Source of the DNA: Candidatus Gastranaerophilales bacterium
GTDB lineage: Bacteria; Cyanobacteriota; Vampirovibrionia; Gastranaerophilales; Gastranaerophilaceae
Length of the DNA stretch: 64,000 nucleotides
Assembly: GCA_944326565.1 (NCBI GenBank)
Contig: CALVEL010000001.1
Location: 310,001-374,000 of the forward strand
Direction of reading: 5' to 3'
Below, piece by piece: positions 5,273 through 44,745 of this stretch (the stretch's first letter is position 1; every line of letters begins with the position of its first letter). The notes beneath the pieces were generated by a model that had not been told where the DNA came from, made no database searches, and saw only the letters and a list, made by a program, of their open reading frames with translations. The position numbers and the translations under genes are program-made.

Positions 5273-5287
5273 TTATTAAAATTTTTG

Positions 5288-5327
5288 AAATCAGGAAAAC
5301 ATTTTATATTTCCTGATTTTATTTTCA
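5288..5327 (+). terminator. Rho-independent terminator after ricT
   Basis: AAATCAGGAAA pairs with TTTCCTGATTT (11 bp, 10-base loop), followed by a T-rich tail. It separates the gpsA-ricT unit from pseudopilin gene A. Confidence 0.85.
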
Positions 5328-5357
5328 AATATTATTTATTTAAAATAATAAAAGTAC

Positions 5358-5386
5358 TTTTCATTCTGCAAAAAATAATGTATAAT
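5358..5386 (+). promoter_or_regulatory. Candidate sigma-70 promoter of pseudopilin A
   Basis: TTTTCA, 17 bases, then a perfect TATAAT at 5381-5386. The expected transcript start near 5393 leaves a roughly 30-base leader before the AAGGAG and ATG at 5423. The G run is inside the coding region, so changes there would act on translation, not on this promoter. Confidence 0.55.
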
Positions 5387-5422
5387 AAAAAAGTAAATAT
5401 AGAAAAAGAGAAGGAGCTGGAA

Positions 5423-6334
5423 ATGCAGACTATACTTGAAAAACGGGGGGGGGGGGCACCCGAGAATAAGCTCCTCAGAGGAAATTTTTTAGGATTTGCA
5501 TTAGAATTATTGAGGTTTAAAAAACATATTTTACCCTGTCATTTATTGAGCGGAGCTCTACTGATCTCAAAAAAGAATGAGCAGAAGATTCTTTGCTTTG
5601 CTCAGAATGACGAAAAGTGTGCCTTTACTTTAGCAGAAGTTCTGATAACTTTAGGAGTAATCGGGATAGTAGCGGCCATGACATTGCCTTCTTTAATCAG
5701 CAATTGGCGTTATAAACAACTTGAGACGGCATTTAAAAAAGCCTATTCTGTTCATTCTGCTGCTTTATCATTGGTAAAAGCTGAGGTTGGTGTTGATAAT
5801 CTTAAAGCAGAGTTTGCTAAATATGATAGGGTAAGTCAGTCATATTCAAGGGCTAATGAATTTATATCATTGTATAATGACAAATTGCATGTAATCGGGA
5901 AATGCGTGTATAACGAAAAAATAAGAAATTATAATAATACAGATGATGCTTACGTAGATATTGGTACAACAAAAATTGATTATATGTTACCTGATGGTAG
6001 TTGTTATAAGGCTGTAGTCAATGGTGCTGAGGTAAGTATAACTATAGATATCAATGGCGCAGGAGCAAAACCGAACAGATTAGGTCATGACATTTTTGTA
6101 TTTAGGGTTGATACAAATGGGATGCTATCACCTGTAAAGATGTCTAAATTATACACTGATGAGGAGTTGGAAGATAAGTGGAGTGGACAACCTGCAATGT
6201 CCGCACAGGTCGGAGATCCATGTTCCATAAAATCCAAACAAAAAGGTAATGGTATGGGGTGTGCATGGTATGCCTTAAACGATATCAATCCTGATGATAA
6301 CAGCAAACGTTATTGGGAAAACTTACCAAAATAG
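5423..6334 (+). CDS. Pseudopilin A with long G-tract leader (in frame, 12 G)
   Basis: Type IV pilin-like/pseudopilin protein of 303 residues. The prepilin-peptidase motif is A67 | F-T-L-A-E-V-L-I-T-L-G with the conserved Glu at +5, followed by the hydrophobic N-terminal helix and a globular domain. The C-terminal half has D-I-N-G-A-G...P-N-R-L-G-H-D-I-F-V-F and a G-x-G-x-x-C-A-W-Y segment shared with pseudopilins B and D. The start at 5423 is fixed by AAGGAG six bases upstream. The leader is abnormally long (67 residues, against about 5 in C and D). It is coded by a run of 12 G, a sequence shared with pseudopilin B, and a palindromic repeat. With 11 G it would end after R-I-S-S-S-E-E-I-F; with 13 G it would stop four codons after the run. 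This copy is therefore in the ON frame. No secretion or pilus assembly genes are adjacent. Confidence 0.85.
   Translation: MQTILEKRGGGAPENKLLRGNFLGFALELLRFKKHILPCHLLSGALLISKKNEQKILCFAQNDEKCAFTLAEVLITLGVIGIVAAMTLPSLISNWRYKQLETAFKKAYSVHSAALSLVKAEVGVDNLKAEFAKYDRVSQSYSRANEFISLYNDKLHVIGKCVYNEKIRNYNNTDDAYVDIGTTKIDYMLPDGSCYKAVVNGAEVSITIDINGAGAKPNRLGHDIFVFRVDTNGMLSPVKMSKLYTDEELEDKWSGQPAMSAQVGDPCSIKSKQKGNGMGCAWYALNDINPDDNSKRYWENLPK
5445..5456 (+). repeat. Homopolymer run of 12 G in pseudopilin A leader
   Basis: Twelve consecutive G in otherwise AT-rich DNA, at codons 8-12 of the gene. It reads Arg-Gly-Gly-Gly-Ala in the open frame. Such runs slip during replication, so the reading frame downstream would change at high frequency. 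Confidence 0.9.
5537..5612. repeat. REP-like imperfect inverted repeat inside pseudopilin A leader
   Basis: Arm 1 TGTCATTTATTGAGCGGAGC (5537-5556) and arm 2 GCTTTGCTCAGAATGACG (5595-5612) are imperfect reverse complements sharing the GTCATT...TGAGC core. A smaller TGAGCA/TGCTCA pair is nested on the arm-2 side. The arrangement resembles short palindromic intergenic repeats found in many bacteria, but here it is read through as codons of the leader. Confidence 0.6.
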
Positions 6335-6337
6335 TTT

Positions 6338-6937
6338 CTATTTTACAGCTTTGAAAAATTCATCAGATATCAATTGAGAATATCGCTTTTTCTCATTTGC
6401 TGATACCAAAAGTCTTTGTTCGCCGTCTTTATTTTCCGTAACGGAAATAATGCCGGCGACTTCGCCTATCGGAAGCTTTTTGGCTTTTGCTTCAAATTTT
6501 ACATAAGGCGCATCTTTTCCATAAGAATTCAAAGTCCCGCGTTTGGTAATTTTTAAGTCTTCAACCTGAAATGCTTGATATTTTACTTTGCTTGTTAAAC
6601 TTTTCAGTTTTTCATCAATTTTATTTGATTGAATATCTTCTTTTGTCAAAATAGGTTTGTTATTAGTATCGACTACAATAAGTTTTTGACCGGAGGCTCT
6701 ATGCTCTGCTACGACACCATTATAGCCCATAATACCTGCAGCTCGTTCAAGTTCAAATTCGTCATTGATTTTTGAAAAATCGCCGACTTTTTGTGCTCTT
6801 TTAACAAGCTCATTTTGAGGCGGGTTAAGAAAATTATCAAGCATATCTTTAGCTAACCTTCCGCCGCCTATGGACATAAAACCTATAAATGCAAGAGCTA
6901 ACAGTATCGCCATGCAAATATTTTTTAAGCATCCCAT
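6338..6937 (-). CDS. Membrane-anchored protein of unknown function
   Basis: 199 residues. Residues about 5-25 form one hydrophobic anchor or uncleaved signal; the rest is a soluble, charged, probably extracytoplasmic domain with alternating beta-like segments (Q-K-L-I-V-V-D, G-I-I-S-V-T-E). I do not recognise a family. AAGGGAA lies before the ATG. It is divergent from mutS and tail-to-tail with pseudopilin A, three bases away. Confidence 0.65.
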   Translation of the reverse strand: MGCLKNICMAILLALAFIGFMSIGGGRLAKDMLDNFLNPPQNELVKRAQKVGDFSKINDEFELERAAGIMGYNGVVAEHRASGQKLIVVDTNNKPILTKEDIQSNKIDEKLKSLTSKVKYQAFQVEDLKITKRGTLNSYGKDAPYVKFEAKAKKLPIGEVAGIISVTENKDGEQRLLVSANEKKRYSQLISDEFFKAVK

Positions 6938-43913: not shown

Positions 43914-43952
43914 GATTTTGTTTTAATAGTACTAGCGCAAGAGGAGCAAATG

Positions 43953-44745
43953 ATGAAAACGCACACTATGATTGAAATTTTAGGGGGGGGGGGCACCCGC
44001 AAATAACGCTCCTGAGAGGCTTTTAGTAAAAAATAGAGCATTTACACTGGCAGAAGTACTGATAACCTTAGGCATAATCGGGATAGTTGCAGCTATGACA
44101 ATGCCGATTTTGATTGGAAAATATAAAAAGCAAGTTACTGTGACACAATTAAAAAAAGCATATACAGTATTAAGTCAAATGGTATTAAGATCACAAGAGG
44201 ATAACGGACCAGTATACTTTTCGACTTCTGAGCAAGTCGATCCTAATGTAGCAGAGAACTTTTTTAAATTATATTGGTTACCTTATTTCAATAGTCCAAC
44301 AGTTTCAAAAGTAGGTTTTAAACCTTATGGCGTTGATCTACCATATAAATATATGAATTATACTCAAGTTAATACAGGTGTTTATACAAAATATACAGAA
44401 GGAAGATTATTTTTTACAACAAACGATGGTACTTCATATTTTGTATTTATCATGACTTGGGATAAAGAATATGATGAAGATGGCAATATGATTTCTATAA
44501 TAGCTAGGTATAATAGTCAACAATATGTATATGTTGATTTGAATGGAATAAAACCTCCAAATACTTTTGGAAAAGATATATTTGGATTTGTTGTGTATTT
44601 TGATAAAAGTATAGTTAGACCTTATGGTAATGGTAAAACTACAGAACAAATTAATGAAGATTGCAGTCATACAGGTACAGGTAATTATTGTGCAGCAAAG
44701 ATAATGCAAGACGGTTGGGAAATAAAAGATGATTACCCATGGTAA
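43953..44745 (+). CDS. Pseudopilin B with G-tract leader (out of frame, 11 G)
   Basis: AGGAG lies six bases before ATG 43953. The frame runs M-K-T-H-T-M-I-E-I-L into 11 G and then stops at TAA 44004-44006. The pseudopilin itself lies one frame away: F-T-L-A-E-V-L-I-T-L-G from 44041, hydrophobic helix, globular domain, and the ending C-A-A-K-I-M-Q-D-G-W-E-I-K-D-D-Y-P-W. With 10 or 13 G the two join into one protein with a 29-residue leader and about 263 residues in all. No ATG, GTG or TTG exists in the pilin frame between the G run and the motif; the first ATG (44095) lies inside the hydrophobic helix, past the cleavage motif. The pilin part has no other stop, so I treat it as a switched-off or frameshifted gene, not a decayed one. 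Confidence 0.75.
43983..43993 (+). repeat. Homopolymer run of 11 G in pseudopilin B leader
   Basis: Eleven consecutive G at the same relative place as in pseudopilin A, and followed by the same GCACCCG sequence. Loss of one G or gain of two opens the frame into the pilin domain. Confidence 0.9.

Follow-up and report, generated by a model that had tools for sequence, protein, structure and literature searches.

In gonococcal pilE/pilS, antigenic variation is brought about by variable cassettes that are moved into one expression site; the pilin genes described here resemble that system in combining pilin diversity with probable recombination between copies, but in them it is the switch leader that is uniform, and many complete genes carry it. 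In its working, the system comes closest to opa of Neisseria, then to the poly-G gene pilC and the G-tract pili of Bifidobacterium. Each opa copy carries a CTCTT repeat in its leader-peptide sequence, and about 11 copies are present in the gonococcus (PMC3745409). As in opa, we find a dispersed family of surface proteins with a slippage-prone repeat in a leader predicted to be cleaved, each gene being set ON or OFF on its own; unlike opa, the products are type IV pilins, the repeat is a mononucleotide G tract, the copies number about 30, and a genome-specific leader is common to pilins with little similarity in their mature parts. The pilin leader thus works like opa without being a member of it, having neither the Opa protein nor the CTCTT repeat. 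Neisseria pilC, whose in-frame poly-G tract (G9-20) switches pilus biology by frameshift (PMC5953494), and other Neisseria poly-G contingency genes share with the present genes an in-frame tract of similar length; pilC, however, is a pilus-associated protein encoded in one or two copies, without a leader module shared over a pilin repertoire. The sortase-dependent pili of Bifidobacterium, with an intragenic G tract in the first gene of the pilus clusters and, for a G11 tract of B. breve, slippage of about 5% to minus one and 1% to plus one (PMC9187656), offer a comparable case of G-tract phase variation of pilus genes in a gut commensal, but with one or two clusters per genome and no repeated cassette. 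No report of phase variation in the group treated here was found in the open-access papers searched, most subscription papers lying outside the scope of the search.

The window, i.e. the whole stretch of 64,000 nt that was analysed, belongs to a genome of Candidatus Gastranaerophilales (1.87 Mb, 14 contigs; hereafter G000) and contains two pilin loci whose leader is, very probably, a common device for phase variation by frameshift, distributed and kept uniform through recombination and cleaved off before the pilin is mature. Their features are as follows.

5275-6338, + strand: gene unit of locus 1, whose presence varies among sister species
5412-5418, + strand: ribosome-binding site AGGAGCT of locus 1, complementary to AGCTCCT at 5469-5475
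5423-6334, + strand: prepilin coding sequence of locus 1 in the ON state, 303 aa, ATG start; predicted leader through residue 67, mature part from F68
5445-5456, + strand: G12 tract of locus 1; 12 G is ON, the G006 orthologue with 13 G is OFF
5457-5481, + strand: conserved post-tract leader block of locus 1, CACCCGAGAATAAGCTCCTCAGAGG
5482-5623, + strand: extra in-frame leader spacer of locus 1, with an interspersed-repeat-like stretch inside, translated ..ILCFAQNDEK..
5624-6334, + strand: predicted mature type IV pilin of locus 1, beginning FTLAEVLITLGVIG
43942-43947, + strand: ribosome-binding site AGGAGC of locus 2, complementary to GCTCCT at 44008-44013
43950-43982, + strand: pre-tract leader ORF of locus 2, ATG at 43950
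43983-43993, + strand: G11 tract of locus 2, OFF as assembled; the frame reaches TAA right behind the tract, inside AAATAA
43994-44019, + strand: conserved post-tract leader block of locus 2, CACCCGCAAATAACGCTCCTGAGAGG; the GCTCCT frame differs from that of locus 1
44041-44745, + strand: predicted mature type IV pilin of locus 2, 234 aa, FTLAEVLITLGIIG, with two near-invariant Cys

The block behind the G run had been pointed out at both loci in an earlier note on this DNA, and both are in place, each with CACCCG, AATAA, GCTCCT and AGAGG. The ON-frame reading GGGAP that the note gave is likewise present in both, although as assembled only locus 1 (G12) is in frame, running open from the ATG at 5423 to the stop at 6334, while locus 2 (G11) is out of frame. 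The similarity, said to end just past AGAGG, proves in the family to cover also the ribosome-binding site and the start codon and to reach, in most copies, about 45 bp beyond the tract; the small palindrome of CCT and AGAGG is incidental, since AGAGG occurs in just the two window copies of 30. Searching the whole genome for G9-CACCC returned 28 exact and two one-mismatch matches, and none for a reversed-pattern control; the full block pattern was found nowhere but at the two window loci, whereas the core is far more widespread. When read downstream, 29 of the 30 copies lead into the N-terminus of a prepilin, typically FT[LM]AEVLIT[LI]G, the thirtieth, at the end of a contig, being a fragment that resembles a pilin, and no copy in the window genome stands before a non-pilin gene. 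Between the two outcomes that the note had envisaged for further copies, a family-wide switch or a mobile repeat in other gene types, the 28 additional ones, all pilin or pilin-like, thus speak for the former.

Runs of at least eight G were matched nine times (overlaps included) in the window, where shuffles predict 0.13, and number 33 in the genome, where base composition predicts about 1.7; 32 of these 33 sit in pilin leaders, and of the three outside the 30-copy set two lie in the leaders of a second class (class B, see below) and one elsewhere. The latter, a G10 at G000:C9:36119, is the sole run of this length outside pilin leaders in the genome and has no clear gene assignment. Prepilin-motif matches in the window genome amount to 75 at E ≤ 0.1; about 30 of these roughly 75 prepilin genes, or some 40%, bear a tract, with the cassette where a short leader of the usual kind would otherwise be. 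The leader matches no Rfam family, and most database records that contain the block go by the name Candidatus Gastranaerophilales or Melainabacteria.

The assignment of the encoded proteins to the type IV pilins relies on profile matches, the N-terminal motif and the presence of a prepilin peptidase gene. PF07963 is above cut-off for both window genes in the genome profile search; in a separate search it was above cut-off for locus 2 (25.3 bits) and slightly below it for locus 1, in which TIGR02532 (IV_pilin_GFxxxE) is above cut-off at residues 67-88. F1, T2 and E5 are invariant in 23 aligned sequences, and the N-terminal motif, G or A followed by FTxxE, is present together with the hydrophobic helix. 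The structure model of the locus 2 pilin (pLDDT 87.7) consists of a helix at residues 3-55 followed by the strands of a beta head; profile matches to solved pilins cover the N-terminus only, and a Foldseek search with the model gave no hit among solved structures at E ≤ 0.001. The window genome has one prepilin peptidase gene (Peptidase_A24, 31.9 bits, above cut-off).

The repeated unit, about 100 bp long, is composed of a ribosome-binding site, an ATG, 7-11 codons, G10-13 and CACCCG..AATAA..GCTCCT. Conservation across copies sets in about 20 bp ahead of the ATG, proceeds through the ribosome-binding site, the MQTMIEI-like codons, the tract and about 45 bp beyond it, and finishes near the mature start; the upstream promoter regions show no conservation among copies. 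The ON reading is M..GGG-APENKLLVGKKIG followed by FTLAEVL, or variants of it, the cleavage site between G or A and F being predicted from the family rule. The codons of the APENKL stretch of the leader are invariant (bar GAA/GAG) in 21 of 21 copies, whereas the pilin N-terminus shows free variation among synonymous codons; moreover, GCTCCT is kept in all three frames relative to the pilin (43, 38 and 29 cases) and is therefore conserved as a nucleotide sequence, whether function or recombination maintains it. The AGCTCCT behind the tract is complementary to the ribosome-binding site AGGAGCT over 7 bp in most copies of the window genome and over 10 bp in G001; an RNA hairpin between the two would be a possibility suggested by the sequence, of which the flanking pairs do not covary beyond shuffles and the complementarity is no higher than that of a control in another genus (G056). 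Some copies have additional in-frame spacers of 94-95 bp in common, and repeat-like insertions occur in others, such as locus 1. Interspersed-repeat-like DNA lies in frame between leader and pilin at 5482-5623 of the window, at L031 and at L266-L285 of G012, its translated insert (ILCFAQNDEK, HSGLDPESINADRNRLRLGGRSDEG) stretching the predicted cleaved leader to at least 60 residues. Contigs frequently end at the leader cassette (C7, C14, C15, C19 and C20 of G001, and several ends in G003 and G008); given these breaks at a near-identical repeat, the tract counts of fragmented assemblies are probably underestimates.

A single frame runs on into the pilin, the others usually stopping within the leader (at TRK-stop or HPKISS-stop), and at simple loci no ATG lies between the tract and FTLAEVL, so that the tract is required for the pilin to be read. 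As in contingency loci, the length of a simple repeat in the coding region sets the downstream frame, and alleles of either state occur naturally, as seen between species: over the stretch from ATG to AGAGG, locus 1 (G12, ON) differs from its G006 orthologue (G13, OFF) in the G count alone; some close orthologue pairs retain the same count. At 29 loci of the window genome, 5 are ON, 22 carry one surplus G and 2 are in the third frame; with 24 of 29 thus OFF, the tract is evidently not maintained in frame as a glycine linker. Replication slippage, by adding or removing one G, would make the ribosome enter or leave the sole frame that continues into the pilin, a translational phase variation that probably switches these genes in living cells; as the leader precedes the predicted prepilin-peptidase site, tract length would leave the mature pilin unaltered. 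ORF calling places the start of locus 2 within the pilin, at 44095; OFF alleles can be missed or truncated by gene callers in this way, and tract-bearing pilins are therefore probably under-annotated.

Over nine genomes of the genus (139 loci, with tract lengths as assembled, where homopolymer counts may be off, and start codons beyond the window genome assigned by a simple rule), 22 loci are ON, 107 are OFF with one G more and 10 are in the third frame. That 107 share one OFF state, against a mean of 69 with tract lengths permuted (0 of 5000 permutations as high), implies that ATG distance and G count compensate each other and that the tracts are not freely randomising; this excess is the main feature that the phase-variation model does not fully explain. 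In our reading, the one-G-excess state is where loci preferentially rest, a single deletion short of ON, but the excess could alternatively reflect selection for that frame for another reason. The common OFF frame might even be the working state, with low, steady pilin synthesis by transcriptional slippage or ribosomal frameshifting and no change in the DNA; the compensation just described and the AATAA stop right after the tract, conserved in that frame in most copies, would agree with it. We regard this as unlikely, given the 22 loci that are ON and the 10 in the third frame, the ON state of locus 1 against its OFF orthologue, and the commonest state of genus g7 (G056), which is the other OFF frame; besides, DNA slippage of G tracts is documented, with losses exceeding gains (PMC9187656), and one G in excess would be a useful resting state under slippage as well.

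The preferred reading, in which leaders are exchanged between genes, draws on the mosaic structure of the copies. In ten genomes, the nearest neighbour is found within the same genome for 118 of 150 leaders as against 48 of 150 mature pilins (residues 21-220); of 188 within-genome pairs whose leaders are very similar, 159 have mature parts that are barely alike; and when homologues are compared across genomes, the leader is closer to that of another locus of its own genome in 175 of 195 cases. The tractless pilin C1:446076 shares 92.6% identity over 685 bp with its same-genome paralogue L014, a tract pilin, the likeness beginning just upstream of the mature start and the leaders being different, and the alignment of a tractless G000 pilin with its tract-bearing G001 homologue starts exactly at the F codon; leaders therefore appear to have been exchanged at the 5' end. 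Together with the further copies and the codon conservation, this supports the view of the earlier note that a conserved or recently copied leader unit lies ahead of different pilins, with the refinement that the window copies differ from the dominant leader version of the genome: they are nearest to their orthologues in other species (0.95 and 1.00) and thus represent two diverged members of the family. Like them, L005, L026 and L031 have escaped homogenisation and resemble the leaders of other-species homologues, as would be expected if whole units were inherited or transferred. It is very unlikely that ordinary family expansion suffices, with whole pilin genes duplicated, mature parts diverging under selection and leaders staying alike without any exchange of cassettes: it would suit the window leaders, inherited with their genes, and those groups that have both leader and mature pilin in common, but not the prevalence of own-genome leaders on homologous mature pilins, nor the near-invariance of synonymous sites in the leader and not in the pilin N-terminus, and the tractless paralogue would still need a leader replacement. 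To suppose that the leader is a mobile element, a transposed repeat landing before pilins by chance, seems highly improbable. Locus 1 does offer a clean presence/absence site, being absent in G001, G002, G008 and G010 (sister species), where the flanking genes are 0-4 bp apart, present in G006 and, in G012 (another sister species), occupied by a different tract pilin; what comes and goes, however, is the whole pilin gene and not the leader, and no target duplication is apparent at the empty-site junctions inspected. The co-orientation of copies along the chromosome would also suit such an element (138 of 141 main-class copies, on 42 contigs and with strands entered by hand, point the way of the majority on their contig; 20,000 random trials gave a mean of 99 and a maximum of 113), but the restriction to pilins in the window genome argues against it, as does a viral contig collection in which no copy of the leader was found. 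G003 has locus 2, and G008 has it from the pilin onward; in the remaining genomes examined, no pilin lies between its flanks.

Within the window genome, tract copies follow the G-rich strand, where the skew is clear, in 28 of 28 cases as against 14 of 32 tractless pilins (hand counts; Fisher 5e-7). Class B, the second G-tract pilin leader, reads GGAGAAAGTATGCAAAA.. then G13-14 then CT and is unrelated to the main one; its copies at G000:C2:202209 (-) and G000:C3:197191 (+), loci L114 and L122, are oriented opposite to the main class on shared contigs. The same opposition holds for G runs followed by CT in G012 (4 of 4), G000 (2 of 2) and G011 (7 of 8), their pilin status having been checked for part of them. 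Recombination between copies would spread the cassette and keep the leaders of each genome uniform, gene conversion being the probable homogenising process. A tentative extension, possible but doubtful, is that of a self-homogenising switch module, in which recombination pastes the leader onto constitutive pilin genes and renders them phase-variable; the co-orientation and the opposition of class B would then reflect effects of recombination or of the replication strand on the tract, and the G run might help to start the exchange.

Beyond this genome, G10CA runs occur in 113 of 288 sampled genomes of the family and in 27 of 41 genera, with a maximum of 115 per genome, several genera having none or almost none; G-tract pilin leaders with unrelated leader sequence are found in at least five other genera. 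A spot check of one random G10CA locus in each of 30 family genomes found that 10 open into a pilin, so that the G-run counts of other genera cannot be read as pilin counts. The maximum belongs to G249 (genus g7), counted over the whole genome, and its 115 runs, if linked to pilins, would amount to a still larger switchable repertoire.

The finding points to many switchable genes that have one type of switch in common, in a gut lineage of non-photosynthetic relatives of cyanobacteria whose surface biology is little known. With about 30 pilins switched independently, every cell could have its own set of fibres, and the switch itself would be a module that can be passed between genes.
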